Assembly (NCBI GenBank): GCA_036395115.1 | Contig: DASWDU010000025.1 | Location: 1-64,000 of the forward strand | From: Thermoplasmata archaeon | GTDB lineage: Archaea; Thermoplasmatota; Thermoplasmata; RBG-16-68-12 | Direction of reading: 5' to 3' | DNA: 64,000 nucleotides | In this document: positions 32,066 to 57,656 of the stretch, piece by piece | How positions within the stretch are numbered: position 1 is the first letter of the stretch | Layout: the number at the start of each line of letters is the position of its first letter | Made by a program: the position numbers and the translations under genes | Notes under the pieces: model-generated | Told to the model about the DNA's origin: nothing | Database searches by the model: none | The model's input: the letters and a program-made list of their open reading frames with translations, nothing else

Positions 32066-32092
32066 GCTATATACCCGGCACTTTTTATTTAG
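32066..32092. promoter_or_regulatory. Divergent promoters of pan and mbf1
   Basis: GGTATATAGC on the minus strand (about 32066-32074) serves pan. CTTTTTATTTAG on the plus strand (32081-32092) is centred 24 bases before the GTG at 32111, so mbf1 is leaderless. Confidence 0.65.
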
Positions 32093-32110
32093 TCTTTGCG
32101 GGCTCGATTC

Positions 32111-32608: not shown

Positions 32609-33079
32609 TCAGGCGAGGCCGAGCCGCGCCTTCACCGGCGCGACGAACGACGTGATGTCCACGCCGGCCTGGCGCGCGGCGACGAGGGCCGCGACCTCGA
32701 CGTCGACGTCGAGGCGCTCCTGGACGCCGTTCACGATCGCGACGATCGCCTTCCGGTCCGCCGCCGTCTTCCGGGCCATCGCTTCTACGATCATTAGGAA
32801 GACTCCCTCCCCCGTGGGGGTCGGCGTCTCGAGGATCGCCGCCGTCGGGACGTAGTCTCGCGGGACCTCGACCGTTGCGACGTCGAACGCTGGCCGGATG
32901 GTGCCTTCGTGGGACTCGAGGAGCTTCGATTCGAGCCCGAGCTGCAAGAGGCGCTGCGCGTCGCGAGGGGGGAACCACCGGAGGTCCATCGAGGCGGACA
33001 AGACGAATTCCCGCTCGCTTAGCTCGTCCCGCCCCTTGCGCTTGAACAGCAGGGCGATCGCATCGCGAAGTTCGTCCAG
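32609..33079 (-). CDS. DUF2240 family protein, probable CTG start
   Basis: 156 residues if translation starts at CTG 33079. The N-terminal winged-helix part LDELRDAIALLFKRKGRDEL is conserved in the archaeal DUF2240 family (haloarchaeal members begin similarly), so a TTG start at 33001 would delete it. No ATG, GTG or TTG exists in frame between 33001 and the CTG. The CTG is preceded by GGGGA. A TATA-like GTTTATGTAG (33121-33130) lies upstream. Possibly nucleic-acid binding. Its stop is one base past the mbf1 stop. Confidence 0.75.
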   Translation of the reverse strand: MDELRDAIALLFKRKGRDELSEREFVLSASMDLRWFPPRDAQRLLQLGLESKLLESHEGTIRPAFDVATVEVPRDYVPTAAILETPTPTGEGVFLMIVEAMARKTAADRKAIVAIVNGVQERLDVDVEVAALVAARQAGVDITSFVAPVKARLGLA

Positions 33080-33415
33080 CGTCCCCGCTCCCGACCCGGC
33101 GCCGCCCGAACGGCCGAGGTCTACATAAACGTGAGGCCCGCGTGCGAACGTTTATCCGGATGCGAATCGTTCGTCGTCTGCTCCCGCGTAAGGTCGCGCG
33201 GATCCGTGATGCGCGATGCAAGCCGGGAGAGGGCGTCGTATGGGTCCCTCCTCGATAGCCTCGCGTTCGAGGCGTTCCGTGACAGGGGGACAACGCGGCG
33301 TCCAACAATCCCTCGGCAAGGGTCAGGGCGTCGAGAGAGCATCGCTTGGCCGTGACACGCGCTGTTACTGCCGGGGGACATCCCGGTTACCCGATCGAGG
33401 AGACGACCGCAACGA
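33080..33415. other. Intergenic region, promoters only
   Basis: About 335 bases between two minus-strand genes. Two TATA-like elements (33121-33130 minus; CGTTTATCC 33149-33157, possibly plus) sit at its left end. The remainder contains only Arg/Ser-rich shadow ORFs. The right part is the 3' side of the long surface-protein cluster, so a terminator may lie here, but no T-tract is obvious. Confidence 0.35.
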
Positions 33416-33898
33416 TTAGTTCTGCCGGGCGGCCTGGAACGTCCAAGACAGGTCCGGGAGGGTGCTCGTGACGGTCTCCCGGAACCAGTACACGACGGGC
33501 ACTCCGTCCGCGGGGAGGGTCGCGCTGATTCCGACGTTTGTGAAGGTGCACGACCCGGAGGCTTCGACGCCGGTCATCAGGGCATAGCCGCCGTACGTGG
33601 CGGACTTCACGGCCAAGGCGAACCCGCGGCTGGAGAGGTCGGCACAGGTGTCCGAGACCGTGACGACGATGAAGACGCGGGTCGTGTCCGTGTGATACGA
33701 GCTTCGCGCCGTGATGTTGAAGTAGTACGTCCCGCCGGGGGTGACTTGGGACGCGAACCCGGAGGGTGTGAGGGTGATTTGGGCGACGGTGAACGTCCGT
33801 GGAGGGGACGTCGCCCCGAGCAACACCGCCGCAGCCACGGACGACAGTGCGGTCGCCGTCACCACCAGGGCGACGATCCACGCCGTGCGCCTATCCAT
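33416..33898 (-). CDS. Secreted or membrane-anchored beta-rich protein, last gene of the surface cluster
   Basis: 160 residues from MDRRTAWIVALVV. A signal anchor spans about 7-28, ending AAAVLLGA, the same boundary style as the anchored proteins at 49424 and 50844. The outer part is beta-rich with two cysteines (DTCADLSS and GSCTFTNVG) that could form a disulfide. The segment VTPGGTYYFNITARSS resembles Ig-like or carboxypeptidase-like sandwiches. The start overlaps the end of the giant repeat protein gene by eight bases, so both are on one mRNA. Confidence 0.7.
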   Translation of the reverse strand: MDRRTAWIVALVVTATALSSVAAAVLLGATSPPRTFTVAQITLTPSGFASQVTPGGTYYFNITARSSYHTDTTRVFIVVTVSDTCADLSSRGFALAVKSATYGGYALMTGVEASGSCTFTNVGISATLPADGVPVVYWFRETVTSTLPDLSWTFQAARQN

Positions 33899-36800
33899 GC
33901 TCACGGCACTCCTCGGTGAACCGATGCCCGCAGACCGGGCACGTCACCCGCTTGCGATGGATCCGGCGGATGAGAAGGGCTCCCACAAAGCCCAAAGCCG
34001 ACAGGGATGCTTGGAAGACCGGATCCTGTTGGAGGAGCAGGAGGAAGGGACCGAGCGGGGTGCCGCCCGACGGGAACGCCCAGTTCGCGTTGTTGCCGTT
34101 GTCCGTCGCATTGAAGGCTTGCATCCCGGGACCCGTCGCACTGCTGTGGTCGACCGCGACCCACTGGGCGATCCCTGTCACGCCGGAGACGTCCACCGTC
34201 CACGTCCCGCTGGACGTGAGGACCAGGCGCGCGGTCGACGAAACGCCTGAGAGGACCCCTCCGGGGGTCAGGGTCCATGTGATCCCGGCCGTCACGCGGA
34301 TCGTCACGTTCGCGGTACCGACGAGGGTGACGTTCAGGGTGGTCAGGCTCGCGGTGAAGTCCTTCTCCCCGCCGACGACTTGGACGTTCGGCCAGACTCC
34401 CCCCTGCACGGATTGCGTTGCGGCGGACGGCAAGATCAGCGTCCCCGCTCCGCTGTTCGTGTTGCTCGACGTGTCGACGATGTTCCCGAGCACGGTCACG
34501 TTGCCGGCATCGAAGTTCACGGAGCCAGTCCCCGAGATCGTCAGGTTCCCGTTGACGAAGACGGGGAATCCGTCGAGGTCCAGCGTGCCCGCGCTGATCG
34601 TCACGGCGCAAGCGAGGAGGAACGAGGCCATCGTCACGGTGCCTCCGCTCAGGTTGAACCCGCAGAACTGCTGACCCGTGGCAATCTTGACCGTCTTGCC
34701 GGAACCGGTCATCGTCACGGTGCCCGTTGCCGGTGTGAACGTCGAGCCCGCGCCAGACGTGTCCCAGTCGCCGGAAACCGTCCATGAACCGTTCGTGAGG
34801 GTGATTGTGCCCGAGGTCCCGCCGGTCATCCCGACGTTGGAAACGGACACGGCGGATGCGTTCGCCATCAAGACGCCGGCGTTTCCGATCGTCAGCGCGC
34901 CTCCGGTGAGGGAGAGGTTGGACGTCGCGAGGGTCGTGGTCCCGCTGCCTCCTTGTACGGTGAGCGTTCCCGCCCACTTCAGCCCGTTCGTGGCCGTGGT
35001 GAACGTCACGGTGTTGGACCCGCCGTTGAACGTGACGTTGTTGAACTCATTGACCGATAGGTTCGATCCGGCGAAGGTCATCGTCTGGGACGACGACGCG
35101 TTGAAGACGACCGTCCCGCTGCCTGCGCCCCAGGATGCCGACGTGGAGGCGTTGGCCCACGAACCTGAAACCGTCCACGTCTCCGATCCGAACGCGAAAT
35201 AGCTCGACGCCGACGACACGCTCACGTTGCCCGTGACCGTCGCGTTGCCCGAGGTCGAGGTCACCGCCCCGCCGGACAGGGTCACGCTCGACGTGGACAA
35301 GGCGAAGGTGGACTTCGCGAAGGTCCCGCCGGAGACCGTCAACGACGCCGACACCGTGATGTTCGAGGCCTCCGTGGCCGTGCCCGCCGTGACCGTGAGG
35401 TTGTAGAAGGACTGGGTCATAGCGATCGTCGCGGCCGCCCCGAAGCTCACGGTGCTCGTGCCGGCCACGAAGGTCGCATTGGATGCGGTCACCGTCCAGT
35501 TGCCGTTCACGGAGATCGTCACGGAGTTCGCCTCGAGCCGGCCGTACGTGCCGAGCGTGACGGCACCCGCCGTGACGTTGTAGTACGGGTTGGCCCCCGT
35601 CGACAGGTCGGTCGCTCCGGTCGCCCCGCCCGTCGAATTCTGGACCGTCAGGGTGCCTCCGATCCGGAGGGCGTTCCCGTCGGACGTGAACGTGACCCCG
35701 CCGGCCACGCTCGAATCGAACGTGACCGCGCTGCCGAACTCGATCGCGGACATCACGCCCCACGTCATCGTCTGCGAGGCGGCGGAACGGAACGTAATCG
35801 GCGCGGAGAACGACCAAGAAGCTGACGAAGAAAGGTCGGTCCAGGATCCGGAAACGGTCCAAGAGCCGCCCGACGACGAGGTGATGTACGCCGTCGCCGC
35901 CGCGAGGTTGATGTCGCCGGTGACCGCGACGGCGGACGAGCCTGCCGCCAAAGCGCCGTTGGCCGCGACCGTCAACGTCGATGTGGCGAGCGCAAGGTTC
36001 GATGTGGCGAGGGTCGTCACGGCGCTGCCGCCTTGGACCGTGATCGCTCCCGCGTTGAGGCCTCGGCTGCTCATCGTGAACACGACCGCGTTCGAGCCGC
36101 TGTCGAACACGACGGCGGAAAACTCGTTCCCGGACAGGTTCGACCCGGCGAAGGTCATCGTCTGCGACGACGCCGAATTGAACGTCACCGGGGCCGTCCC
36201 GGCGGACCATGAGGCGCTCGTCGAGGCGTTCGTCCACGAGCCGCTGAACGTCCATGGGCCGCTCCCGAAGGCGATGTACGCCGCGGATGCGGAGACGTTC
36301 ACGTTGCCCGCGACACTTCCCTTGGAGGCACCGGACATCGAGATGTTCGCGCTGCCCGACAGGGTCAGGGCTCCGCCGACCGTGAAGCCGCTGGCGGCCG
36401 TCGCGCCGATCGTAATCGACCCGCCAGAGTGCGTCACGCTCCCCGACACCGCGAAATCGAAGGTCCCGATGGAGATCGTCCCGATCGTCGAGCCCGTCGT
36501 GATGAGAGACGCCATGGCGGCGTTCACGTTCACGGTGGCCGTGCCGGAACCGCTGTTGTTGTCGAAGTGAACGGCGATCGAAGACGTCGGCACGGGGCAG
36601 CCGAACGCCCCGCCCGAGGACGACGCCCAGTGGTTCACGTCGCTCCAGTTCCCGGTCCCGAGGATCCAGAACTCGTTCGCGCCGCACGGGGCCGAGACGG
36701 TGACGACGAAGCCGTCGTTGCCGCCTAGGGTCGTGAAGACGACCTGCCCCGAGCCGTCGACCGTGCCGACCGCGAACTGGGAGCCGTTCTTCAGGACGCT

Positions 36801-39800
36801 CCAGTGGTTCGAGGCAGTGTTCCCGCCAATCGTGAGCGTGATCGTGTCCGTCGTCTTGGTGTCGGTGTGGCTCCACGCGAAGGTGCCGTCGAACGTCCAC
36901 GCGGTGAAGGCGCCGATCGTGATGAGGGCCGTGGCATCGTCGTCGGTGACGGTGAAGTTCTGCACGTTCACGGAGCCGTCCGCGAGGGTCCCGGTGGCGT
37001 TCACGGTGAGGGCGTTGAACGTCACGCTGAACCCGGTCTTCGTGAGGGTCGCCGCCGAGCTCACCGTCAGACTGGTGCCCGTGACGTCCGAGCCGAGCGT
37101 CGTAGTGCCGGAGAAGGTGAGGGTCGCGAACGTCTGGCCGGACGCCACGGTCAGGGTCTTGCCGGATCCGGTGAACGTGACCGTCGAGGTGGTGGAGGTC
37201 CAGGAGCCCGCCGAAGACGTGTTCCAGCTCCCGCCGATCAAGACGGTGGCCGAGGCGAACGTGATCGTCGCGGCGCCGGCTGATGTCAAGTTCCCATTGA
37301 ACGTGACCGTGGACGAGGTCAGCGTGAGGGTCGAGGACCACGTCAGGCTGCTCGTGAAGGTCGTCGAGATCCCGCTGTTGACGGTCACGTTGTACGCCGT
37401 CTGCGGGATGTTCACGGATCCGCCCGAGGTGCCGATGACGATCGTCGAGGTCCCGGCCGTGAAGGTCGCCCCGCCGGCGGAGGTGTCCAGCGACTTGAGG
37501 GTGATCATCGAGGAGTTGGCGGTGAGCGTGCCTGTTCCGGTCACCGTGAGGCTGGACGTCCCCGTGATGTCATGGTAGGGGTTCGGCCCGGTGCCCAGGG
37601 AACCGGAGATGCTGAACGTCGCGCTCACGTCGATGGCGCTGGACTGGGTGAGAGTCCCCGAGACCGTGAGATTGTAGAAACCATTGCCGCTGTTCAGGAT
37701 CTTCACCGTCTTGGTCGCACCGCTCAGCGTGATCGTGCTCATCCCCTTCGCGAAGGCGGAGCCCGCGCCGGACGTGTCCCAGTTGCCCGAGACCGTCCAC
37801 GAGCCGCTCGTCAGCGTGATCGTGCCGGACGAACCGCCGGTCATCGTGACGTTGGACACGGACACCGCGGACGCGTTCGCCGTCAACACGCCGAGGTTGC
37901 CGATGGTCAGGGCGCCGCCCGTGAGGCCGAGGTTCGCGGTCGCGAGCACCGTCGTCGATCCGCTCCCCGGAACGGTCAGGGTGCCGGCCCACCGGAGGGC
38001 GTTCGTGCTCATCGTGAAGGTAATCGTGCCGCTGCCGGCGGCCGACTGGAGGACGACGTTGTTGAACTCCGCGACGCTGAGGTTCGACCCCGCGAACGTC
38101 ATCGTCGCGCTCGTCGAGTCGTTGAACGTCACGGTCCCGGATCCGGCGCTCCAGGACCCCGATGTCGAGGCGTTCGTCCATGTCCCGCTGACGGTCCACG
38201 ACTCCGAACCGAAGGCGATGTACGAGGCCGCGGCGGAGACGTCTACGTTGCCCGAGATCGTGACGGTGCCGGACGTGCTGAGAAGGGCGCCGCCGGCGAA
38301 CGTCAGGTTCCCGTTCACCGTGAGGGCGTTCGTCCCTTTCGTCAGGGATCCTGCGTTGAGGTTCAGGGCCGACGTCGTGAGCTGCGACGCTTGGGAAATC
38401 GTGCCCGTCACGGTCAAGATGGCGAAGCTCTGGCTCGCAAGAAGCTTGACCGTCCTTGAGGCGCCGGACAGGGTGACCGTCGACGTGCCCGAGGTGAACG
38501 TCGTCCCGGACCCGCTCGTGTCCCAGTTGCCGGAGACGGTCCATGACCCGGACGTGAGATTGATCGTGCCGCTCGTCGCCGACGTCATCGTGACGTCGGA
38601 GACGGTCACGGTGGACGCGTTCGCGGTGAGGGCCCCGCCCGTCGAGACGGTTAGCGCGCCGCTGCCACTGAGGGCCAAGCTCGCTGTGCTCAGCGTCCCG
38701 GAGATCGTTGTGGAGTCGCTCACGTCGATGGCGGTTGACATGGTGATGGTCCCGCTGATCGTAAGGTCGTAGAAACCGTTCGAGGAATTCCGAATCGCGA
38801 CCGTCTTGGAGGTCCCGCTGAGCGTCACCGTGGAAATCCCTTTCGTGAACGTCGTCCCGGTCCCGCTCGTGTCCCAGTTTCCCGAGACGGTCCACGAGCC
38901 GCTCGTCAGCGTGATCGTGCCGCTCGTCGCCGACGTCATCGTGACGTTGGACACGGACACCGTGGACGCGTTCGCGGTGAGGGTCCCGCCCGTCGAGATG
39001 GCGAGCGTGCCGTTCCCGGAGAGCGCCTGGCTTGCGGTTGCCAGCGTGCCGGAGATCGTCGTGGAGTTGCTGACGTCGATAGCGGTGCCCATGGTGATGG
39101 TCCCGCTGACCACCAAGGCGTAGAACCCGTTGGAGGAGTTCCGGATCGCGAGGGTCTTGCCCGAACCGTTCATGGTGGCCGTGCTCGTGCCGGCGCCCAG
39201 CGTAGTGCCGGAGGCACTGGTGTCCCAGTTGCCGGTGACCGTGACCGAGGAAGAACCGAGGGCCAAGGTCCCGTTGGCAGCCATCGAGACGTTCTCGATG
39301 GTCACCGGATTGTTGTTCGTCGAGTAGTTGTAGAACTGACCCGAGCCGAAGGTGTATGTTTTCCCAGCGGCCTGCACGGAAATCGTCGAGGTCCCGAACG
39401 TGAGCGTCCCCGCGCTGCTGTTCCAGTCGCCGCTAACGTCGATCGTCCCGGAGGTCATGCTGAGTGTGGTGCCGGAGCCGATCGTCACGTTCGCGAGGGT
39501 CAGGGTGGAGGAACTGCCGGCTAGCCCGCCGGAGCCCGCCAGGGTCAGGTCGGCCCCGCCGTTGACGTCCAGGCCCGCGGTCGTGAGCGTGCCGAGGCCC
39601 GACGTGGCGACGGTGTGGCTCACGTCGATGGCGGTGGACATCGTTAGGGTCCCGCTGATCGTGAGGTTGTAGAAACCGTTGCTCGAGTTTCGGATTGCGA
39701 CCGTCTTGGCGGTCCCGGTGAGCGTCACCGTGCTCGTCCCCTTCGTGAACGTCGTGCCCGCTCCAGAAGTGTTCCAATCGCCGGAGACCGTCCACGAGCC

Positions 39801-42800
39801 GGCGGTGAGCGTGATCGTGCCGGACGTCGCACTCGTCATGGTCACGTCGCCGACGGTGACCGCACTCGCGTTCGCAGTGACGGTCCCGCCAGTCTGCACC
39901 GTGAGGCTGGCGCCGCCTGAAACCGCCAGCCCGCCCGTGCTCAGCATCCCGCTCACCGATACCGCGTTGCTCGCGTCGATGCCGGTGGTCTGTGTGACCG
40001 TGCCCGAGACCGTCAGGTTGTAGAACCCGTTGCTGACGTTGCGAGTCGCGATGGTCTTCGAGGCGCCGGTCATCGTAATCGTCGAGGTGCCCTTCGTGAA
40101 CGTGGTGCCGGACCCGCTCGTGTCCCAGTTGCCCGAGGCGGTCCACGAGCCGCTCGTCAGCGTGATCGTGCCGCTCGTCGCCGACGTCATCGTGACGTTG
40201 GACACGGACACCGTGGACGCGTTCGCGGTGAGGGCCCCGCCCGTCGAGATGGCGAGCGTGCCGTTCCCGGAGAGCGCCTGGCTTGCGGTTGCGAGCGTCC
40301 CAGAGATCGTCGTGGAGTTGCTGACGTCGATCGCCGTGGACATCGTGACGGAGCCCGTGATGGTCAGGCTGTAGAACCCGTTGCTGGCGTCGTGGATTGC
40401 GACCGTCCTAGAGGCGCCGCTCAAGGTGATCGTGGATGTGCCCTTCGTGAACGTCGTCCCGGTCCCGCTCGTGTCCCAGTTTCCCGAGACGGTCCACGAG
40501 CCGCTCGTCAGCGTGATCGTGCCGCTCGTCGTCGACGTCATCGTCACACTGCCGACGGTGACCGACGAGGCGTTCGCCGTGAATGTGCCGCCCGTGGCGA
40601 TCGTCAGGTCTCCCCCGCCAGAGACCGTCTTGCTCGACGTGTCGAAGGTGTTCGCTATGGTGAACGTGCCGGTCAGACTCATGCTGTTGTCAAGGACCAG
40701 GTCGGAGAGTGTCGAGATCGTCCCGGAGATGGTGACATCGTAGAGGTGGTGGTTCGTGCCGCCGATCCGCATTTGGATCGTCTTCGAGGTGCCGGACAGC
40801 GTGACCCGGCCCGTGCCTTCGGTCCACGTCGAGCTCGAGCCGGACGTGTCCCAGTTGCCCGAGGCGGAAATCGTCCCGCTCGTGAACGAGATCGAGTTCG
40901 TCCCAGCGTCGTTCATCGCCACGTCTGTGGCGGTGATCGCGGACGTGCTCGCCGTCAGCGTGCCTCCCCCCGACACGGTGAGGTTGGCGCCACCCGTGAT
41001 GTCGTTTCCGGAAGTCGTCAGAGCTCCTGTGATCGACAGGGCATTGCTCACGTCGACGGCGCTACTTTGCGTGATCGTCCCGGAGACGATCAGGTTGTAG
41101 AATCCGTTGCTCGCGTTCCGGATCCTGAGCGTCTTGGCGGTCCCGGCCAAGGTGACCGTGCTCGTGCCCCTCGTGAAACTCGACGACGATCCGGAAGTGT
41201 CCCAGTTGCCGGACGCGGAGATGTTCCCGCTCGTTAGGGAAATCGCATCCGCCGAAGCATCGTTCATCGTGACATTGCCCACAGTGATGGACGATGTGGT
41301 GCCGGTCAGAACGCCGCCGCTCGACACCGTCAGGTTGGCGCCGCCGGTGATGTTGTTGCCCGACGTGGTCAGCGTGCCGGTAATCGCCAGCACAGTAATC
41401 ACGTCGATCGCGCTCAGCTGGCTGACCGTCCCAGAGATCGTGAGCTGATAGAACCCGTGGGCGGAATCGGCCGTCTTCACGGTCTCGCCAGTCCCGCTCA
41501 GCGTGACGGCGCTCGTGCTCCGGTTGAACGTGCCTCCGGAGGAATCCCAGATACCCGGGACCGTGAGGGACACCGCACCGCTCATCGTCAACGTGCCGCC
41601 CGCGCTCACGACGAGGTCTCCGTTCGTCCCGGTAGATGTCGTCGTGCCGACGTACACGTCCTCGCCGGTCATCGTGAGCGTGTTGCCGAGAGTGAGCGTG
41701 TTGGAGACGTTCAGAGCGCTGTTCAGGGTATACGTGCCGGAGACCGACAGGTTGTAGAAGCCCTGCGCCCCGTTCAGCTTGAGCGTCTTGGCGGAACCCG
41801 TCATGGTGACCGCGCTCGCGCCCATCGCGAGCGTCGAACCCGCTCCCGAGGTGTCCCAGTTCCCGGACACCGTCCATGATCCGCTCGTCAGCGTGATCGT
41901 GCCGGACGTGCCGCCCGTCATCGTCACGTTGGCGACGGTCGCCGTCGCCGCGTTCGCCGTGACGATTCCGCCATTGTTCACCGTGAGGTTGCCCGCCCCG
42001 AATGTGAGGCTTCCAGCCCCGCTGACGGTAATCGCCCCGGTCACAGAGACGTTTCCGTTGCTCGTGTTGATCGATCCGCTGGAGACGCTGAAGGTCGTCC
42101 CGGACCCGACGGTCAGGGCGCCGATCGTGATGGAGGACGTGCTGCCCGCGATTCCACCGGTCCCACTCAACGTGGTTGCCGCCCCGCCGGTGATGCTGTA
42201 GCCGGACGTCGTCAGGGTGCCCGAACCCGAAGTCTGCAGGCCATTGGACACGTCGATGGCGGTCGCCTGCGTGATCGTCCCGGTGATCGTCAGATTGTAG
42301 AAACCCGCCGTCCCGGTGATCGCCACGGTCTTGGCGGTTCCCGACAGGTTCACCGTGCTCGTCCCCTTGTTGAACGTACCGGTGCTCGAGTCCCAGTTCC
42401 CCGAGACCGTGAGTGAAACGGAGCCGCTCATCGTGAGCGTGCCACCCGTGTTGACGCCGACGTCGCCGTTGGCCCCGATGGATGTCGTCCCGCCGACGTA
42501 CATGTCCTTCCCGTTCATCGACAGGGCATTGGACAGCGTGACGAGATGAGCCACGTTGAGCGCGGTGTTCAGGGTGTACGAGCCGGTAATCGTCAGGTCG
42601 TAGAACGCGGCGGTGCCGTTGATCGCGAGGGTCTTGGACGTGCCCGAGAGGGTCACGATGCTCGTGCCCTTGGCAAAGGTGCCGGCCGAGGAGTCCCAGG
42701 AGCCAGAGGCCGAGATGCTGCCGGAGGTCATGCTCCATGAGGTCCCGCTGCCGATCGTCACGTCGTTGACCGTCATCGAAGACGTGGTGCCGGTGATTCC

Positions 42801-45800
42801 GCCAGTACCCGACAGGGACACGTTGGCTCCGCCGGTAAGGCCGAAGCCCGACGTTGTCAACGCGCCGGAGCCTGAGGTGGACAGTGCGTTGCTCACGTCG
42901 AAGGCGCTGAGTTGCGTGATCGTGCCCGAGATTGCGAGGTCGTAAAAGCCGTTCGATGAGTTCAACATCGTCAGGGTCTTGGAGGCCCCAGACAGGGTGA
43001 CGGTGCTCGTGCCCTTCGTGAACGTCGAACTCGCGCCGGACGTGTCCCAGTCGCCCGAGACAGCCCAGGAGCCGGAGGTGAGCGTGATCGTCCCGGAGGT
43101 GCCTCCCGTCATCGTTACGTTAGAGACGGCTGCCGCGGATGCGTTCGCCGTGAGGATTCCGCCGTTGCCGACCGAGACAGCCCCGCCGGTCAGCCCGAGA
43201 TTCGCGGTAGCGAGGGCGCTCGTGCCGGAGAGGTCACTGACCGTCGAAGTGCCGCCCCAGACGAGGGATCTCGAGGCCATGGTGAACGTCTGCGCGGCTG
43301 CGGAGCTCGACGTGAAGGTCACGTTGTTGAACTCATTGACGCCGAGGTTCGACCCTCCGAACGTCATGATGACGTTCGACGCGGAAGAGAATAGGACGGT
43401 CCCGGTCCCGGCGCTCCACGAAGCCGATGTCGAGTTGTTCGTCCAGGCGCCTTTGAACTCCCAGCCGGCCGTGCCCCCGAACGAGAAGTAGCCGGTCGCG
43501 TTGATCGTCACATCGTTGGCGATCGTCTTCGTGCCCGACGCTCCGGCGGTGATCCCGCCCGACAGCGCGGCGAGCGTGGCGACGGTCAGCATCTGCGTGC
43601 CCGTCGCGAGGATCGCTCCGCCGTTGACGGTCAGACTACCCCCGACGTCAAGGAGTGTGTTCGTCGTCACCGTGCCGGCCGCGGAGATCGTCAGGTTGTT
43701 GAAGTTGTTCGCCGAATTGCGGATTGCGATGGTCGTGCCGGACCCGCTCATCGTGATTGTCGACGTGCCCTTCGTGAACGTCGTCCCGGACCCGCTCGTG
43801 TCCCAGTTTCCCGAGACCGACCATGATGCCGTTCCCGAAATCGTGATTGTCCCGCTCGTCGCCGAGGTCATCGTCACGTTGCCGACCGTGACCGTGCTGG
43901 AGTTTGCGGTCAGCGTGCCACCCGTGGAGATCGTCAGCGAGCCTCCGCCGGACAGCGCGTAGTTGTTAGCCGCTGAAGTGTCGAATGTCCCCGAGATGCT
44001 CGTGGCCGTGCTCACGTCGATGGCCGACGCCGCCGTGATCGTCCCGGAGACCGTCAGAGATGCGAAGCCGTTGGACGCGTTCAGGATCTTCACGGTCTTT
44101 GTCGCGCCCGATAGCGTGACGGTGCTCGTGCCCTTGGCAAACGTCGAGCCCGCACCGCTTGTGTCCCAACTGCCCGAGACGGTCCACGATCCCGACGTGA
44201 GGGTGATCGTGCCGCTCGTCGCCGAGGTCATCGTGAGGTTGCCGATGCTCACCGTGCTCGCGGTTGCGGTGAGGGTCCCCGCCGTGGCAATCGTCAGGTT
44301 CCCGCCACCGGTCACGCTCGTGTCGTTCGTGGTGAAGCTGTTCGCGATGGTGAGACTCCCAGTCAGGTTCACGCCGGTCCCCGTGGACTTCATCGTGATG
44401 TCCGAGAGCGTGCTGACTGTGCCGGAGACGGTCAGCGCGTAGAACTCGTTGTTGGTTCCTGAGACGAGCATCTTCACGGTCTTGCTTGCGCCGCTCAGTG
44501 TGACCGAACCGGACGTGCCGCGGTCCCAGGTGCTGGACGAGCCCGAGGTGTCCCAGTTGCCCGACGCCGTAATCGAACCGGTCGTGAGCGATATCGTGTT
44601 CGCGGACGCTCCGGTCATCGTGACGTCGCTGACGGTGATGGCGGCGCTGGAGCCGGCCAGGGTCCCGCCGCCGGATACGGTGAGGGTCGCGCCGCCGGTC
44701 ACGTTGTTCCCGGAGGTCGTGAGGGTGCCGGTGATCGAGATCGCGGAGCTGACATCGATGGCCGAGTTTTGCGTAATCGTCCCGGAAATCGTCAGGCTCG
44801 CGAACCCGTTGCTTGCGTTGCGGATCGCAACCGTCTTGCTCGTGCCGCTCATGACGATCGTGCTGGTTCCCTTGTTGAATGCCGCCGTCGAGTTGCTGCT
44901 GTCCCAGTTGCCGGAGACCGTCGATGTGCCAGAGCCCAACGTCAGCGTGCCGTGCGATCCGACCGTCACACCGCCCGTGGTGAAGGTCAGGTTGTTCGTC
45001 GCGTCCGTCAGGATTGTCGTCCCGCTCGCGTTCGAGTCCTGGATCGTGAGCGCCCCGCTGATCTTGAGCGCGTTTGTGACGAGGGTCCATGTTGCACCCG
45101 TCGCGCTGTTGGGGTCGAAGGTCAGGCTGGGGAACGCCACGCCGCCGACGTAGTTCGTGGAATTTCCCTGGTTGAAGTTGTTGCTGCCCGTGGCCGTGAA
45201 CATGACCGTCCCGCTGGCGGTCGCGTCCCAGGAGGCCGAGGTTGAGTTGTTCGTCCAACTCGCGTTGGAGAAAGTCCAGGTCGCCCCACCGAAGACGAAA
45301 TAGCCTGTGAAGTTCACCGTGACGCTGCTCGATATGGTCTTCGTGCCGGAGGCTCCGGCCGTGATCCCACCACTGAGTGCGGCGAGGGTCGTAATCGTCG
45401 TGGTGAACGTGCTGGTTGCCCACACGCCGGTCACTGTGGTCGTTCCGTCGACGGACGCCGACCCGTTGGATGTGATCGTCACTCCGGGGTCCGCGGTGAA
45501 GTTGTTCGCATTGCCTCCGACCGTGTTGAATGTCCCGCCCGTCGTTGCGGCCTCCAAGAGCGACGTTCCCTTGTTGAAGACGGCGCTCGTGCCGCTACTG
45601 TCGAATGTCTTGAACTTTATAGTCGAGGCGTTCGCGGTCAGCGTGCCACGGGTCCCGAGGATAATCCCGGCGGTCGCCGTGATCGCGAGGTTCGAGCCGG
45701 AGGTGTCCAGGACCGTGTTGCCGCTCGCGCTCGCCGTCGAGTTCAAGATAGTCAGGTCGCCGCCCATGTTCAGGGGGCGAGTCGCCATCGTGTAGGTCAT

Positions 45801-48623: not shown

Positions 48624-48829
48624 CGCGACACCGTCCTTGACGTGGAGTGCCGGTCCATGACCATCGCCACCCGAGTCGAGCTAGGCGGCGAGTCTCTCCC
48701 CTGCACGTGGATGACAACCACCCGATGACTTGGACATGGAGAGCAGCCCGTACTTTGTGACTCTATTCAAGTTGGAAAGGAACGATATTTTCGTGCCGTG
48801 AGCCGTTGAGGCAGAAGCGGCCATGATCC
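48624..48829 (-). promoter_or_regulatory. Upstream region of the giant gene
   Basis: About 205 bases. AAAATATCG on the minus strand (about 48788-48797) is TATA-like and would give the giant gene its own promoter with a leader of about 140 bases. A short ORF ending SKSSGGCHPRAGERLAA is out of place with no support. The region is AT-richer than its surroundings. Confidence 0.4.
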
Positions 48830-49123
48830 TCATGGCAGATACCTCCGGTGCACGACCAGCGCCGCCGCGAATCCCATGATGACCAGGATCGGTAGCGCGC
48901 GGTCCGCCAAGCTCGTCGTCCACGGATCGAGCGCTTGGAAAGTCGCAAAGCCCGCGGTGAGCGCCAAGGCGCCACGGATGTTGAGGCGGAGCAGCTTGGA
49001 CAGCTCGCGGCCCCGACGTTGGAGCCACGGCGACGCCGCCATCTTGTCGATCAGGTCTCCCCCCTCGATCCGCTCTTGGCGCTTGCGCTCGGCGATCTTG
49101 GCCGGGTTCCTCCGATGGCTCAT
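48830..49123 (-). CDS. Small two-helix membrane protein of the surface cluster
   Basis: 97 residues from MSHRRNPAKIAERKRQERIEG. The basic N-terminal half (about 1-45) is followed by two hydrophobic helices, IRGALALTAGFATFQAL and ALPILVIMGFAAALVVHRR. The topology suggests a cytoplasmic N-terminus. It could be an assembly or anchoring partner for the giant protein directly downstream. Not recognised as a known family. Starts four bases after the stop of the 49364 gene. Confidence 0.6.
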   Translation of the reverse strand: MSHRRNPAKIAERKRQERIEGGDLIDKMAASPWLQRRGRELSKLLRLNIRGALALTAGFATFQALDPWTTSLADRALPILVIMGFAAALVVHRRYLP

Positions 49124-49127
49124 TTCC

Positions 49128-49364
49128 TCACCAGTCCGGCCTATCTTGCTTACGTTCGAAAGACTCAACCTTGTCGCCGAAACCAGCACTTCGCTCAATC
49201 ACCACCGCGGCCCAATGCCCGCTCTCCTCATGGGATCGGTTGCCGATCTCCACGAAAAGCGGGTCGACTTCGGCGAACGACGGAAGGAGGCTCGCGGCTG
49301 CGACGGTGTGCACCGGCCTGCGCCGGCGTCTGATCCGGGCCTTCTCAGTGGGCAAGGTGTTCAT
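49128..49364 (-). CDS. Small soluble protein of the surface cluster
   Basis: 78 residues, MNTLPTEKARIRRRRRPVHT onward, with no cysteines or membrane helix. It has a good Shine-Dalgarno sequence (AAAGGAG) eight bases before the ATG and a TATA-like CTTAAATTT about 25 bases further up. The tight spacing to the next gene supports its reality. Composition is charged and helix-prone at the C-terminus (ERSAGFGDKVESFERKQD). Function unknown. Confidence 0.5.
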   Translation of the reverse strand: MNTLPTEKARIRRRRRPVHTVAAASLLPSFAEVDPLFVEIGNRSHEESGHWAAVVIERSAGFGDKVESFERKQDRPDW

Positions 49365-49423
49365 CGTCTCCTTTGGACGCGCGTGAAATTTAAGGGGAGG
49401 GGTTCGCGCCCCTCATGCTACGG

Positions 49424-50008
49424 TCACGTTCCGTCGAACTGCGCGGTCACGGTGATCTGTGTACCGCTTGCACCCGCCGCCAGGTTCGCGTTGATGACCG
49501 CGAACTCGAGGTACCATTTGGGCGTGGTGCTTCCCGCCGTGACAGTCTGCGTGTTCAGCGACGTGTACGTGCAGACGCCGCCCGCGTAGGTTCCCGTCAG
49601 GGTCGTCGGGTACGTGGAACCGGCGTCATTCGACTCCTTGACGATGAGGTTCGACGCACAATCCGTTGGGAATCCGCCAGGGCTCGCCGTGATCGTCACG
49701 ATCGGGTGGACGCCCGAGCGATCCGTGGAGTAGGAGTTCTGCGCGATATCGATCCGGAACGGGTGCTGAGTTTGGGACAGAATCTCACCGTACAGAATCT
49801 CAGTCGGGACGTTCACGACGCTCGGGGTCATCTCCGCGATGTGCGTCGTCTGCTGAGCCGACGGACCGAGCAGGACCGCTGCGGCGATTCCGCCGAGCAC
49901 GAGCATTCCGACGAGCGGGACGACCGGGACCCTTCCCCACGCTTTCGCGCGGAGGAGCCGCCGGCCGACGCTCCCAGTATCGAAAATCGTTGTCCGAACT
50001 TCTGTCAT
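49424..50008 (-). CDS. Membrane-anchored beta-rich surface protein, paralogue A
   Basis: 194 residues. The N-terminal cytoplasmic tail (MTEVRTTIFDTGSVGRRLLR) aligns with the tail of the 50844 protein. One membrane helix (about 28-48, ending AAAVLLGP) is followed by an outer domain with YGEILSQTQHPFRIDI and a late KWYLEFAVINANL. The latter matches KWYFQFHYAVSTL and TWYVQFHYAVSSL of the other two paralogues. Two cysteines could form a disulfide. Likely a surface subunit; fold resembles an Ig-type sandwich by pattern only. Confidence 0.7.
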   Translation of the reverse strand: MTEVRTTIFDTGSVGRRLLRAKAWGRVPVVPLVGMLVLGGIAAAVLLGPSAQQTTHIAEMTPSVVNVPTEILYGEILSQTQHPFRIDIAQNSYSTDRSGVHPIVTITASPGGFPTDCASNLIVKESNDAGSTYPTTLTGTYAGGVCTYTSLNTQTVTAGSTTPKWYLEFAVINANLAAGASGTQITVTAQFDGT

Positions 50009-50195
50009 CGTCTCACCGCCCCCGCGCTGTTCGTCGGCCCGGAGGGGGCGCGCGCCCGCGCGGCGGCTTCATGCAGTCCAAGGTGGGGACCGTGGTAATT
50101 GGCAGGGAGGTCGGGCATTCGAATTCCCTCGGGAGGCTGGCTCAGCGAGACCTTAAGTTTGTCGAGCCCGTTTTCACCAGTGATTCGGTTGTCCG

Positions 50196-50702
50196 TCACA
50201 GGTCCGCGATCTCCTCCGGAACCGCTTGGAGTTCCCCGGCACCTTCCACCGATTCTCCGGGGATTTCGACGTCCCTCGGATTCTCCGGGACTTCCCCCGG
50301 TTCCTCGACGTGCCCACACGCGGGGCACACTGCGGGCGTGGCGTGGATTTCGGGAGTCGGCACGACCTTCCCGCGATCCAAGAACGCGACGTGCGTCTTC
50401 AGGTTCTTCGCGGCTTCGCCGCACCGAGAGCACTTGGACGGCTCGACCGTGACCGACAAGGCTTCGCAACGCCACCCCTTCGCGATCTCGTTCGTGAACT
50501 TCACGCGCCCGCGGAACTCGCGCGTGAGGGCTCGACGGACGGCTTTCGAGAGGCCGGGATCCCGTTCGAGGGACTTCGCAACCGCGAAGAGCGGCGTCTG
50601 CGCGCCGAAGAAGTCGCGCGCCATGTTCGCCTGGTCGCGTGCCCAGTCTTTCAGATGACGGGGCTTCACCCGGAAGTTCCTCTTGACCGGGCGCCGCTTC
50701 AT
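50196..50702 (-). CDS. Double CxxC zinc-ribbon protein of the surface cluster
   Basis: 168 residues, cytoplasmic. A basic helical N-terminus (MKRRPVKRNFRVKPRHLKDW) leads to a core and then CSRCGEAAKNLKTHVAF and, 35 residues on, CPACGHVEEPGE; together they can bind one zinc. An acidic tail closes the protein. The start overlaps the stop of the 41-codon ORF (ATGA). It may bind nucleic acid or the zinc-knuckle tails of neighbours. Family not recognised. Confidence 0.65.
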   Translation of the reverse strand: MKRRPVKRNFRVKPRHLKDWARDQANMARDFFGAQTPLFAVAKSLERDPGLSKAVRRALTREFRGRVKFTNEIAKGWRCEALSVTVEPSKCSRCGEAAKNLKTHVAFLDRGKVVPTPEIHATPAVCPACGHVEEPGEVPENPRDVEIPGESVEGAGELQAVPEEIADL

Positions 50703-50824
50703 GCCTTCCCCTCCGCCTCCGCTCGTAGAAGCACGGCGTGCAGCCCGGCCACGAAGCGAGCATGGCCCGCGGCCGCAAGCGTCCTTCCCAGGGCGTCTGT
50801 GTTCGGAGCGTCCAACTTCGTCAT
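50699..50824 (-). CDS. 41-codon ORF coupled to the zinc-ribbon gene
   Basis: Encodes MTKLDAPNTDALGRTLAAAG and a helical remainder ending RAEAEGKA. It begins 20 bases after the stop of the 50844 gene and ends in an ATGA overlap with the zinc-ribbon gene, an arrangement typical of co-translated archaeal genes. No hydrophobic helix. Short, so it may instead be a translated leader. Confidence 0.4.
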   Translation of the reverse strand: MTKLDAPNTDALGRTLAAAGHARFVAGLHAVLLRAEAEGKA

Positions 50825-50843
50825 GACGATGTCTCCGCGCGTT

Positions 50844-51392
50844 CTACCCGGTCGCGAACTGAGCGGACCATGTAACCACCGAGGCCGGCAGGGTCGAGAC
50901 CGCGTAGTGGAACTGGAAGTACCACTTCGGCGCGGAGGCGCCCGTGGCCCCGGCCGCGACGCTCTGCTGGAACGAGGTCCCGAAGTCGTACGTGAAGACG
51001 GACCCGCTCTGCGTCACGGTCGGGTTCGTGAAGGAGTAAGAGATCCCGTCGAGGGAGGCGATCAGCACGACGTCCGTGCCCGCGGTCAAGTTCGTGGCGG
51101 AGATCAGAGGCCGCATGTTCTCGGCGATCTTGTACGTGTTCGTCCCAACCGTCACGTTGAACCAGAACTGTTTGCCGCCCAGGATGTCCCCGTAGAGCGG
51201 GTTCACCTCCAGCCCGCTAATCTGCGGGATCGCCTCGGCGATGTTTTGATTCTGGTTCTGCCCCGGAGGCCCGACGAGGACGGCAGCCGCCGCGAAGCCC
51301 GCCAAGACGATCGCCACGAGCGCCACCACCGGAATCTTGTGAAAGACCTTCTTCTGGAGAAGTCGACGTGCGAGGCTCGCGTAGTCGAACAC
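50844..51392 (-). CDS. Membrane-anchored beta-rich surface protein, paralogue B
   Basis: 182 residues from a GTG (VFDYASLARRLLQKK). One helix (about 20-42, PVVALVAIVLAGFAAAAVLVG) leads to an outer domain with IPQISGLEVNPLYGDILGG, YDFGTSFQQSVAAGATGASAP and HYAVSTLPASVV. The outer domain is about three-quarters identical to the end of the 51713 protein. Alignment with paralogue A implies about seven more residues at the N-terminus (TKTETR), but no standard start codon encodes them. An ACG start or a short product are both possible. Confidence 0.72.
   Translation of the reverse strand: MFDYASLARRLLQKKVFHKIPVVALVAIVLAGFAAAAVLVGPPGQNQNQNIAEAIPQISGLEVNPLYGDILGGKQFWFNVTVGTNTYKIAENMRPLISATNLTAGTDVVLIASLDGISYSFTNPTVTQSGSVFTYDFGTSFQQSVAAGATGASAPKWYFQFHYAVSTLPASVVTWSAQFATG
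50881..50990 (-). repeat. Paralogue duplication tract, copy 1
   Basis: A 110-base stretch nearly identical (about six mismatches) to 51750-51859. It encodes the C-terminal part of the beta-rich outer domain in both genes. The DNA similarity exceeds that of flanking sequence, so it suggests a recent duplication or gene conversion. Confidence 0.75.
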
Positions 51393-51414
51393 GCGGGTTT
51401 CTGTCTTCGTCGCC

Positions 51415-51672
51415 TCACCGCCTCCGCCCTGCTTGTCCGCGCACGGCCATGTGCGCCCGCATCGCGAAATCGCGGTGGCGTTTCCTCGCGGTGGGGTCCT
51501 CAGAAGCCGAATGAAATCCGCTCAAGGGCTCCGCGGACCAGACGCGGGAGTACACGCCCTTAAGGATTTCTTCGCCATTCTCGCGTGAGATTCCAATCCG
51601 ATCGCTGCGGACATTCTCGGCGCTCCGCCGAAGATCGCCGATCACCGCGCGGCTTCCGACGTCCGGCGTCAC
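51415..51672 (-). CDS. Possible small ORF between paralogues
   Basis: 85 codons from a GTG, ending Arg-rich (AVRGQAGRRR). It fills the gap between two cluster genes, and an alternative 43-codon frame overlaps it. No domain, membrane helix or clear Shine-Dalgarno sequence. Kept at low confidence because the spacing pattern of the cluster includes other small genes in similar positions. Confidence 0.3.
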   Translation of the reverse strand: MTPDVGSRAVIGDLRRSAENVRSDRIGISRENGEEILKGVYSRVWSAEPLSGFHSASEDPTARKRHRDFAMRAHMAVRGQAGRRR

Positions 51673-51712
51673 GGAACGCGCGGACCCTCATGCCTTCACG
51701 TTGCGTCGGGGC

Positions 51713-53521
51713 CTATCCCGTCACGAGCTGTGCATTCCAACTAATCACGGAGGCCGGCAGGCTCGAGACCGCGTAGTGGAACTGGACGTACCACGTGGGG
51801 GCAGAGGCGCCCGTGGCCCCGGCCGCGACGCTCTGCTGGAACGAGGTCCCGAAGTCGTAGTAAGACGTCGATCCCTGCTGGGTCATGGTGGGCGAGGTGA
51901 GCGCGTAAGTAACCCCGTCGAACGAGGCGATCAACACGACATCCGTACCTGCGCTCAGATTCGTCACCGAGATCACGGGGCGAACGTCCTTCGCGACGAC
52001 GTACGAATTCTGGGCGACCGTCACCGTGAACGAGAACTGCGTGCCGCCGACGACGTCGCCGTAGGCCGGGTTGAGGTTCAGCCCGTTGATCTGCGGCGTG
52101 GCTCTCGCGATGTTCTGGTCCTGGCCCGGGCCCCAGGGACCGCCACCTGTGAGGAGCAACAGGGGGACGAGCAGGACGGCGCCCGCGACGGCAATCGGGA
52201 TCCCGAACCGGGCTAGCGCCGAAGACGCAAAGAGCCGCCGGAGGCGCCCCTGCGCGCCGGGCCTCTCCCGGTCGCCCGCGCGACGCCGGCGCACCGCCGT
52301 CGCCGAGCTCTCCGCACCCGGCGAGGGCTCTCGTCGAGGCGCAATCGCCCCGGACGCCTCGGCGGACGCTGGCTCGATGGCGGCGAGGGCCGCGAGCTCG
52401 TCCCAAAGCTCGGGGGCGACTTCGGCCGAAAGAGCGCCTGTCGAAACCTCCTTCCCGAGCATCGAATCGACGAGCGTGTCGAGCTCCTGGGCGAGATCCG
52501 TTTCCTTCCCAACTGGCCGGGCGCACGACGGGCACACCTCCACGCCCGCCGGAATCGGGGAACCGCATGCGGCGCATGGAGTCCCGTCGGGGGAACGTGC
52601 GGCCGCTTCCGCGTAATCCCGGTCCGCGCGCTTTCGGGCTTCCTGCCAACGCTGCGCGTCCCCGAGGCTGGCGTATAGCTTCGCTTTCAGGTCCCAAAGG
52701 CCCGGGTAGTTCGAATCGAGCGCCTCGAGCCGATCGAGGAGGGTTACGGCGACCGCCGCGCCACCGAGGATGGCTTCCGAGGCGGCGAGGGCGAAGAGGG
52801 CATCCGCATCTCGCTCATCGCGGCGAAGCCGGTCCTGGGCTCCCTTTGCGACGCGCTGCACCCGACGCCGAAACGCGGCCTGCGCTTCCGGGGAATCCTC
52901 AGCCCGATCGGCACCGGCGCCTACCGCAGACGGTCCGTAGGCCCCTGAACCCGGGGCCGCGGGAGGCGCACGCTGGGTTGCGGGAAGGGCACCCAAGGGT
53001 TTCGGCTTTGAAGTCGCTGGCGCCGGTGCCGCTTCCAAAAGCGACGGCTTGGTTTCGTCCTTGAACTCCTCTTGGACGATTTCCTGAATCGCGGCGTGGC
53101 CGAGTTCGTCGAGCTCGTCCTCCAGGGCGTCCGTCGGCTCGAACTCCACGCCGCACGTCGAGCACCGCGTCGCCTCCGCCGGGACGGGGCTCTCGCACAT
53201 CGGACACGGCGACGTGGATCGAGAAGGCCGCGCCTCGTCGGATCCCGCCTCGGCGGCCCGAAGGCGGCTCTGCTGCGCGAAATCCGACTCACCGAGGCGG
53301 GCGTGGAGCTTCGCCTTCAACATCCAGAGGCCCGGGTAATTCGGATCGAGTTTCGCGAGGCGCTCGAGCGACTGCACCCCGCTCCGGGCGTCGCCGAGCG
53401 TCCCTTGCGCCGCGGCGATCGCGAAGAGCGCGTCCGCATCGTCCGGATTGAGCTTCAGTCGCTCGCGGGCGATCTGCGTGATCAACTGCAAGCGCCGCTG
53501 CCGGTCCTCGTCTTGCGCCAC
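51713..53521 (-). CDS. Transmembrane protein with duplicated TPR/zinc-ribbon modules and a beta-rich outer domain (paralogue C)
   Basis: 602 residues. Module 1 (about 1-130) has TPR-like helices (NPDDADALFAIAAAQGTLGD, LDPNYPGLWMLKAKLHARLG) and CPMCESPVPAEATRCSTCG. Module 2 (about 225-340) repeats it (DERDADALFALAASEAILGG, LDSNYPGLWDLKAKLYASLG, CAACGSPIPAGVEVCPSCA). A disordered linker, a membrane helix (about 437-460) and an outer domain matching paralogue B follow. The layout suggests an inside-out link between cytoplasmic partners and the surface. It lies right after the HTH regulator. Confidence 0.78.
   Translation of the reverse strand: MAQDEDRQRRLQLITQIARERLKLNPDDADALFAIAAAQGTLGDARSGVQSLERLAKLDPNYPGLWMLKAKLHARLGESDFAQQSRLRAAEAGSDEARPSRSTSPCPMCESPVPAEATRCSTCGVEFEPTDALEDELDELGHAAIQEIVQEEFKDETKPSLLEAAPAPATSKPKPLGALPATQRAPPAAPGSGAYGPSAVGAGADRAEDSPEAQAAFRRRVQRVAKGAQDRLRRDERDADALFALAASEAILGGAAVAVTLLDRLEALDSNYPGLWDLKAKLYASLGDAQRWQEARKRADRDYAEAAARSPDGTPCAACGSPIPAGVEVCPSCARPVGKETDLAQELDTLVDSMLGKEVSTGALSAEVAPELWDELAALAAIEPASAEASGAIAPRREPSPGAESSATAVRRRRAGDRERPGAQGRLRRLFASSALARFGIPIAVAGAVLLVPLLLLTGGGPWGPGQDQNIARATPQINGLNLNPAYGDVVGGTQFSFTVTVAQNSYVVAKDVRPVISVTNLSAGTDVVLIASFDGVTYALTSPTMTQQGSTSYYDFGTSFQQSVAAGATGASAPTWYVQFHYAVSSLPASVISWNAQLVTG
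51750..51859 (-). repeat. Paralogue duplication tract, copy 2
   Basis: Partner of 50881-50990, in the 3' end of the TPR/zinc-ribbon gene. Confidence 0.75.
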
Positions 53522-53525
53522 CGGA

Positions 53526-54146
53526 TCACGCCTCCAGGGTGCGGGTCAGGCCGCACCGGATTGCGAGGTCCGGATGCACGTCGATCGCGTCGCAGAGGGC
53601 CGACCGGAAGACTTCTTTCGCCGCGTCCGCTCCGAGGCCCTGCGCGCACACGCTCCAGAGGTCCCGGTGCACCGTCGCGACGAGTTCGCGCAGACGGTCG
53701 ATGCCTCCGTCGCTGCCCGCGACCATCTGATCGAAGACGGCCTTGCGGAGCTCCTGGTGGTCCGTGGTGAGCCGGTGCTCCATCTCCACCTCGATCGACG
53801 GCGTCCCGACGAACCGGATCCGCTCGAACAGGGAATGGAAGTACGCGACGTAGAAGTCGACCACCTCGCGAAGCGGTCCGGCATCGTCCTCGAGATCGAG
53901 CTCGAGCTGGAGGCGGGCGTTCCGGAGGCGATATTCGGACGTCCGGGAATCGTGCGGCCGGCGCTCGAGCAGGCCGAGCTCCCCGAACCGATGCAGGAAC
54001 TTCGACGCGGTCGAGATGTGGATGTGCAGGGTCCGCGCGACCTCGCTCGAGAGATGCCAGCCGCCGTCGCGCAGCGCGCGGAGGATCGATAGGCTGTGCT
54101 CCCCCGAGAGCAGGACGATCGTCTGTCGGAACGCTTGCTGGTCCAT
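53526..54146 (-). CDS. ArsR/TrmB-like winged-helix regulator of the surface cluster
   Basis: 206 residues from MDQQAFRQTIVLLSGEHSLS. The winged helix (about 12-75) has ILRALRDGGWHLSSEVARTL, a recognition helix ISTASKFLHRFGELGLLERR, and a wing. The remaining 120 residues are helical with EVEMEHRLTTDHQEL, probably dimerisation or effector binding. It leads the minus-strand run of about eleven surface genes, four bases before paralogue C. A longer in-frame start at 54242 adds a Pro/Arg-rich part that looks non-coding. The best guess is that it controls the cluster. Confidence 0.82.
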   Translation of the reverse strand: MDQQAFRQTIVLLSGEHSLSILRALRDGGWHLSSEVARTLHIHISTASKFLHRFGELGLLERRPHDSRTSEYRLRNARLQLELDLEDDAGPLREVVDFYVAYFHSLFERIRFVGTPSIEVEMEHRLTTDHQELRKAVFDQMVAGSDGGIDRLRELVATVHRDLWSVCAQGLGADAAKEVFRSALCDAIDVHPDLAIRCGLTRTLEA

Positions 54147-54773: not shown

Positions 54774-54824
54774 AACCGCATACACATAATTGGCCGTCTC
54801 TACCGACATCCGGAGGTGGAAGAG

Positions 54825-55385: not shown

Positions 55386-57656
<2,271 letters not shown>

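Follow-up and report, generated by a model that had tools for sequence, protein, structure and literature searches.

The window analysed here is a stretch of 64,000 nucleotides (nt), bases 1-64000 of a 93,208-bp contig, from the genome of a soil archaeon of the Thermoplasmatota order RBG-16-68-12, a GTDB order for which Diamond et al. (2022; PMC9038741) introduced the name Ca. Angelarchaeales. The genome is 2.40 Mb in size, 98.45% complete and 2.89% contaminated. The minus strand of the window carries an unbroken run of genes that begins with a helix-turn-helix (HTH) regulator gene (53526-54146), contains the gene of a 4,910-residue repeat protein and ends with the gene of a small secreted protein (33416-33904). 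This run is interpreted below as probably a derived copy of a surface-display locus of the order, in which outer domains have been exchanged on conserved inner anchors. A first-pass annotation had described about eleven genes on one strand, with short gaps or overlaps, and took them for one regulated assembly with no named counterpart. The single-strand run is as described, and searches of profile libraries (Pfam, NCBIfam, phage families and PADLOC) and of the literature likewise found no named system with this gene set; the gene count and the idea of one regulated assembly need revision.

Genes and proteins of the run

Genes were assessed from the listing of open reading frames (ORFs) and a codon-usage model, the per-codon score being compared with those of known non-coding ORFs, and membrane helices were assigned with a 19-residue hydropathy threshold. 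Eight minus-strand genes have coding support, that of 48830-49123 being the weakest:

53526..54146, minus strand: winged-helix regulator (IclR/MarR/ArsR-like), 206 amino acids (aa); PF09339 E=5.7e-5; orthologues at the site
51713..53521, minus strand: membrane anchor, 602 aa, with two tetratricopeptide repeat (TPR)-zinc ribbon units, a membrane helix and the SP outer domain; Pfam TPR_17 and DZR
50844..51392, minus strand: SP1, 182 aa, one N-terminal helix and a beta-rich outer domain; 69% identity to the outer domain of the anchor
50196..50702, minus strand: double zinc-ribbon protein, 168 aa, without a membrane helix, orphan; CSRC and CPAC motifs
49424..50008, minus strand: SP2, 194 aa, one N-terminal helix and the SP outer domain; 35% identity to SP1
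48830..49123, minus strand: small membrane protein of about 97 aa; support for the gene is weak, as 11% of non-coding ORFs reach its per-codon score
33891..48623, minus strand: giant protein, 4,910 aa, beta-solenoid-like repeats and a zinc-ribbon tail; modules, repeat period and AlphaFold2 (AF2) model
33416..33904, minus strand: SP3, 162 aa, a small protein that is either secreted or anchored and whose gene starts inside the end of the giant gene; weak similarity to SP2

Two further small ORFs, 51415-51672 and 49128-49364, have scores equal to the median of known non-coding ORFs. The count is therefore eight genes, including the weakly supported one, in place of about eleven. In order from the HTH gene, the eight genes are separated by 4, 320, 141, 187, 300, 206 and -14 nt, and the short gaps or overlaps described earlier apply to the HTH-anchor pair and to the overlapping giant and SP3 genes, not to the five intervals between. 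A five-base match to the ribosome-binding sequence precedes five of the eight genes, the HTH gene not among them, at a chance rate of 16%; this motif pattern mildly favours co-transcription and is given no further weight.

The HTH protein matches IclR, MarR and ArsR profiles in Pfam and NCBIfam. In the anchor a single strong membrane helix spans about residues 439-457, and the anchor's outer domain is common to SP1, with 69% identity over 136 aa, and to SP2, with 30-35%, in agreement with the earlier description of a protein that joins TPR and zinc-ribbon modules to a shared outer domain. That description also counted three related single-pass proteins; SP1 and SP2 carry the domain of the anchor. 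SP3, the small protein at the end of the run, is only weakly similar to SP2 (28%, E=6e-4 in a small database), and on this sequence evidence its membership in the SP family is doubtful. The zinc-binding motifs reported for three proteins are present as CxxC zinc-ribbon motifs, four in 51713-53521, two in 50196-50702 and one at the C-terminus of the giant. The 48830-49123 protein, formerly a two-helix membrane protein, does have a membrane helix, but a single hydrophobic helix clears the hydropathy threshold.

The SP outer domain has no relatives outside the window proteins among the 36 other genomes of the order, a 400-genome sample of the class, GTDB r220 contigs and IMG/VR, the last two having been scanned with short patterns from three sequences, which distant relatives can escape. 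It belongs to no named family in Pfam, NCBIfam or the phage families. Weak hits to the domain in the class, none better than E=3e-4, fall on parts of other ORFs and were treated as noise, as was a 27% match in G009, which covers a partial stretch of a protein that looks secreted and cupredoxin-like. Jelly-roll-like structural matches of an AlphaFold model of SP1 (TM-scores around 0.3) were discarded as not interpretable at a predicted local distance difference test score (pLDDT) of 51.5. The double zinc-ribbon protein has no match in the other 36 order genomes, and no relatives of SP3 were found across them.

The 4,910-residue repeat protein noted in the first pass is a strongly coding ORF in the codon-usage model. 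Its N-terminus has a hydrophobic helix, and its repeats have a period of 117 residues (autocorrelation peak at lag 117). The protein contains 131 N-glycosylation sequons and is rich in T, S, G and A, and its C-terminus consists of a weak hydrophobic stretch, basic residues and a zinc-ribbon motif, CPVCGHRF...CREH. An AF2 model of a three-repeat segment is all beta (pLDDT 71.6, predicted TM-score 0.74), a predicted fold that is read as a solenoid. Beta-helices have roughly 20-25 residues per turn and rise 0.48 nm per turn; with this general geometry, the solenoid of about 4,300 residues would span very roughly 100 nm. A Pfam Thioredoxin_10 match (E=3.9e-10) is a repeat artefact, since the match spans 66 residues inside the 117-aa repeats and no single stretch passes.

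The regulator site across the order

The same site was located in relatives with the flanking Cdc48-type AAA ATPase as bait, and the order-wide comparison comprised 37 genomes including the source genome. The metagenome-assembled genomes (MAGs) of the same genus and family that are named Euryarchaeota archaeon EA_n and RBG_19FT_COMBO_69_17 are presumably members of this order. Within the genus the site is bounded on one side by an AAA ATPase gene and a DUF2240 gene, and on the other by the HTH gene followed by Hsp20, Cdc48-type AAA and mevalonate kinase genes. In the window these flanks are:

30821-32317, minus strand: AAA ATPase, proteasome-regulatory type (Pfam); syntenic in G003, G006, G010 and G020
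32609-33091, minus strand: DUF2240 gene (Pfam); syntenic in G003, G006, G010 and G020
54816-55331, plus strand: Hsp20, named by sequence inspection; syntenic in most genus genomes
55443-57656, plus strand: Cdc48-type AAA, named by sequence inspection; syntenic in most genus genomes
57690-58613, plus strand: mevalonate kinase-like, named by sequence inspection; syntenic in most genus genomes

Because same-genus genomes show this gene order on either side of the cluster, an assembly artefact at a foreign site is excluded. Contamination or misassembly was rejected on the same flanks and on codon usage, which fits. A viral or proviral origin was rejected as well: there are no relatives in IMG/VR and no informative phage-family match, and the chromosomal flanks are syntenic.

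Orthologues of the HTH protein occur at this site with 61-89% identity within the genus and 26-39% in other genera and families of the order. Across the order the winged-helix regulator adjoins one giant protein. In the relatives this giant has, from the N-terminus, a KaiC-like domain, TPR, a zinc ribbon and a run of 10-20 TNG (TNGL) repeats, followed by a membrane helix, a large outer part and another helix at the C-terminus; an intact example, L051:6656-13507, is 2,283 aa long. A KaiC-TPR-zinc-ribbon query matches 34 of the 37 order genomes, some partially or weakly. The TNGL stretch, between the zinc ribbon and the membrane helix, holds 10-25 TNG per protein in giants across the order (examples are L051:6656-13507, L163:917-6514 and L169:9965-16810). 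The fused KaiC part matches PF06745 (E=1e-18 to 5e-23) and DUF7504, with a weak match to the MEDS sensory domain (E=2.6e-4 to 1.2e-3) as well, and its Walker A motif is degenerate (QGPPGxEKx and variants) wherever it was read. In some families a stand-alone KaiC with an intact Walker A motif (GPAGxGK[ST]) lies between the HTH gene and the giant (L164, L165, L166, L169, L170 and L172); intact and degenerate copies thus occur in pairs, with stand-alone copies at, for instance, L165:9064-9963, L166:9050-9964 and L172:6501-7355. Most members of the genus have no separate KaiC, and the fused protein directly follows the HTH gene.

The anchor of the window adjoins the HTH gene across a 4-nt gap, as the giant proteins do in relatives, and is built from part of the same protein. 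Its residues 1-155 share 58-65% identity with the TPR-zinc-ribbon part of the giants that genus relatives have at the site, and residues 258-362 match that region a second time, with 32-43% identity. It starts at the TPR, without KaiC and without TNGL repeats, and its TPR/zinc-ribbon unit is doubled. An N-terminal KaiC-like domain, a TNGL linker or a related outer part is absent from 51713-53521, and its own genome gives TPR-zinc-ribbon matches alone.

Other members of the genus show further states of the site. G015 (L144/L163) has a compact, complete locus of the HTH gene, a gene for one 1,865-aa protein and the DUF2240 gene; G018 (L038) has beside the HTH gene an anchor that lacks KaiC and retains the TNGL repeats, on its sequence a plausible intermediate toward the window version. 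In G003 and G010 the HTH gene is kept and lies about 320 and 840 nt from the DUF2240 gene, against about 20.4 kb in the window, and neither genome has a match to the KaiC-TPR-zinc-ribbon protein. Tandem KaiC-TPR-zinc-ribbon giant genes, one of them without KaiC, are found on contig C207 of G018 (L143), and G021 also has several copies. At L037:8525-9122 in G006 two overlapping frames correspond to a single ORF in G016, probably through a frameshift or assembly error in the G006 MAG.

A second locus and the exchange of outer parts

Residues 1-1,258 of the giant have matches in 12 other genomes of the same genus and none elsewhere in the order. Its modules are 50-60% identical to the outer parts of coiled-coil giants in G003, G006, G008 and G018, which are encoded at a different locus. 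In the relatives read, the solenoid modules occur in proteins of up to about 4,500 aa whose genes adjoin a metC-like gene and a gene for a soluble coiled-coil paralogue, and the complete solenoid giants at this second locus end in a long cytoplasmic coiled coil. The coiled-coil giants in general (L148:4478-12745 and its relatives L124-L132) combine 1,400-3,100 aa of outer part and a single membrane helix with a cytoplasmic coiled coil of about 1,390 aa. Two soluble paralogues are encoded upstream of them, an arrangement reminiscent of tethering proteins.

The source genome has its own copy of the second locus on contig C12 (L148:4478-12745). The 1,386 inner residues of its coiled-coil protein are orthologous to those of the genus relatives, with 57-59% identity to three genus members and 48% to G003, and the outer 1,369 residues are unrelated, with GH43_C2/DUF1349-like and disaggregatase-related domains. 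The giant of the window has no coiled coil of about 1,390 residues and ends in a short anchor and a zinc ribbon. With an unrelated outer part on the own coiled-coil protein, the solenoid outer part and the coiled-coil inner part therefore reside on separate proteins in this species. At the HTH site, inner and outer parts also differ in conservation. Between full-length KaiC-TPR-zinc-ribbon proteins from three members of the genus, identity is 69-73% in the inner part, drops to 36-44% over the initial 450 residues of the outer part and varies between 27% and 78% in what remains of it.

Origin and function of the window locus

The run is best explained as a derived copy of a Ca. Angelarchaeales surface-display locus whose inner anchors are conserved and carry exchangeable outer domains, a reading to which we assign a probability of roughly 0.6. 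It draws on the gene content, the synteny, the loss of domains, the sharing of modules and the exchanged outer part set out above. The surface nature of the run, already suggested in the first pass, is well supported by its membrane-anchored proteins with beta-rich outer domains. The ancestral locus would have consisted of the winged-helix regulator and a single giant membrane protein, joined in some families by a stand-alone KaiC ATPase; the giant would have had a conserved cytoplasmic half (degenerate KaiC, TPR, zinc ribbon and TNGL linker) and a variable outer part. In the window species the KaiC and TNGL parts would have been lost, the TPR-zinc-ribbon unit doubled and the outer part swapped for a new beta-rich domain that is also present in small single-helix proteins. 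The beta-solenoid giant, which in most other species of the genus sits on the coiled-coil anchor at the second locus, would here have its own short anchor with a zinc-ribbon tail.

In such an arrangement the giant may be a fibre-like adhesin of very roughly 100 nm, the small proteins may serve as accessory outer subunits and the TPR/zinc-ribbon parts may keep the complex on the inner face; adhesion, the fibre form, regulation by the HTH protein and physical association of the products are what this architecture suggests. Because the KaiC part is absent, the inner module of the window is more likely a structural scaffold than a sensor, and the regulator-KaiC-membrane protein set of other families, judged by its conserved adjacency, looks more like a signalling system. 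The order-wide HTH-KaiC-giant-protein locus is accordingly a better unit of analysis than the gene set of the window.

Several observations weigh against the derived-locus reading. The SP1 model, beta-rich at the low pLDDT of 51.5, has no structural match that would identify the fold of the SP domain. The structural matches of the giant's solenoid are all insignificant, although many of them are beta-helix adhesins (best beta-helix E about 0.8), and in the N-terminal region its similarity to relatives is weak (hhalign P=8e-4, probability 25%). Some outer region is well conserved, as in the 78% identity between G015 and G018. The exchange may have run in either direction, and the solenoid may have moved, been copied or been left from an older second copy. 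Finally, with gaps of 141-320 nt between the middle genes, the run may or may not be co-transcribed.

A further-reaching proposal, which we put forward only tentatively, is that the order possesses an undescribed transmembrane signalling system composed of the winged-helix regulator, the KaiC ATPase and a giant with an exchangeable outer region, and that in the window species swaps of outer regions from one giant anchor to another have converted this sensor into an adhesive surface structure of several proteins.

The view closest to the first-pass annotation, that the eight products form one dedicated fibre or adhesin under HTH control, is unlikely. A co-regulated assembly would suit the one-strand run, the 4 nt between the HTH and anchor genes, the overlap of the giant and SP3 genes, the ribosome-binding-type motifs before five of the eight genes (the HTH gene again excepted) and the SP outer domain common to three proteins. 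However, the relatives of the giant sit elsewhere in the genus genomes, beside unrelated genes, an outcome that the first pass itself had named as refuting its idea, and the small genes are orphans, so that a conserved association cannot be demonstrated. The HTH gene is retained without cargo in G003 and G010; kept at two nearly empty sites, it is not tied to the cargo of the window. Shared gene order, proposed in the first pass as a check, is found across the order for the pair of HTH and TPR/zinc-ribbon proteins and not for the giant.

It is less probable still that the window encodes a membrane sensor, with outer domains that bind a ligand and an inner TPR/zinc-ribbon part (with KaiC in relatives) that signals to the winged-helix regulator. 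The adjacency of HTH, KaiC and KaiC-TPR-zinc-ribbon membrane protein is conserved over several families, and the DUF7504 and weak MEDS matches of the KaiC part are in keeping with sensing, but that part is gone from the window version, the fused KaiC of the relatives has a degenerate Walker A motif and the HTH gene persists without the membrane protein in two species. That SP1, SP2 and SP3 are pilin-like subunits of the cell's type IV pilus machinery is very improbable, for although they have a single N-terminal helix and a beta-rich domain, the SP profile matches a single solved structure, an archaellin (E=0.068), and two PF00437 secretion ATPases are encoded on contig C14, that match is not significant, no pilin family matches in Pfam or NCBIfam, no class III cleavage site is obvious by eye, and the fusion of the same domain behind a cytoplasmic TPR/zinc-ribbon part fits a retained anchor over a processed pilin.

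Other features of the window

Beside the proteasome-type AAA ATPase gene lies a long ORF conserved in the genus (28836-30959, minus strand), the second half of which encodes an FKBP-type prolyl isomerase domain. A 1,383-aa ORF with a strongly coding score (13542-17693, plus strand) overlaps several long minus-strand ORFs and may be an antisense artefact of GC-rich sequence. A gene for a secreted beta-rich protein runs across the right end of the window (63145-64000 and L140:1-596, both minus strand); L149 of G006 starts with a relative of this protein, and the two have the C-terminal motif PTTTYTT.AYRAADFDA in common.

Comparison with known systems

No secretion ATPase, platform protein or pilin gene of a type IV pilus or archaellum locus is found in the cluster by Pfam, and the PADLOC anti-phage models yield nothing beyond weak HTH matches (Csa3-like, E=6e-5) and a single weak match to an ATPase. 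The SP proteins, each a lone N-terminal helix followed by a beta-rich outer domain, resemble the TasA and SipW-type fibre proteins, a lead only; no TasA/camelysin profile matches in Pfam or NCBIfam, and no SipW-type peptidase was recognised in the cluster. The giant shares a long, repetitive, beta-solenoid-like outer part with the bacterial giant beta-helix adhesins, such as antigen 43, HMW1/EtpA and SRRP, which make up most of its weak structural matches. Unlike them, it has its own membrane anchor and a zinc-ribbon tail; no two-partner-secretion or autotransporter Pfam domain is found in it, and no outer-membrane transporter among the cluster proteins. The giants of the relatives resemble archaeal KaiC-family ATPases and MEDS/DUF7504 proteins in the KaiC-like domain at their N-terminus and differ from them in the degenerate Walker A motif of this fused domain and in its linkage to TPR, a zinc ribbon and a membrane-spanning outer part.

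No description of KaiC-TPR-zinc-ribbon giant proteins was found in the literature, of which the search coverage is incomplete, and the study that named the order contains none of the surface, adhesion, giant-protein, zinc or TPR terms looked for in it (PMC9038741). Within the reach of these searches, the pairing of KaiC with a giant membrane protein across the order is undescribed, and it could be a new archaeal link from surface contact to the cell interior. Together with the exchange of outer parts between two giant anchors, the order-wide locus is a more interesting finding than the gene run itself. Surface diversification of soil and sediment archaea is poorly known, and a single genus here offers matched loci: the regulator and the inner anchors are conserved, the outer parts are exchanged, some sites are near-empty and one genome may hold an intermediate. 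Outer-domain exchange on membrane anchors thereby becomes directly testable.

VARTIG of the Thermococcales has a large surface protein whose outer domain is exchanged by recombination, with smaller membrane proteins downstream (PMC8416519). It is defined by Ig-domain proteins of arCOG07710 at the 5' end and is confined to the Thermococcales (Makarova et al. 2021, PMC8416519), and its authors reported no close counterpart in other archaea (PMC8416519). No cluster protein has an Ig-family Pfam match (the arCOG itself was not searched), and the text of the VARTIG paper (PMC8416519) does not mention KaiC, zinc ribbons or HTH. Both are archaeal loci that join a large surface protein to varying sets of smaller membrane proteins, and in the window and its relatives, where outer parts differ and inner parts are conserved, the outer part may likewise be exchanged by recombination, whereas the leading protein of the window has a TPR/zinc-ribbon inner part, with KaiC in relatives, and a regulator heads the locus. 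VARTIG is the closest described archaeal case found; it is not of the same family, and by analogy the two may work in a similar way.

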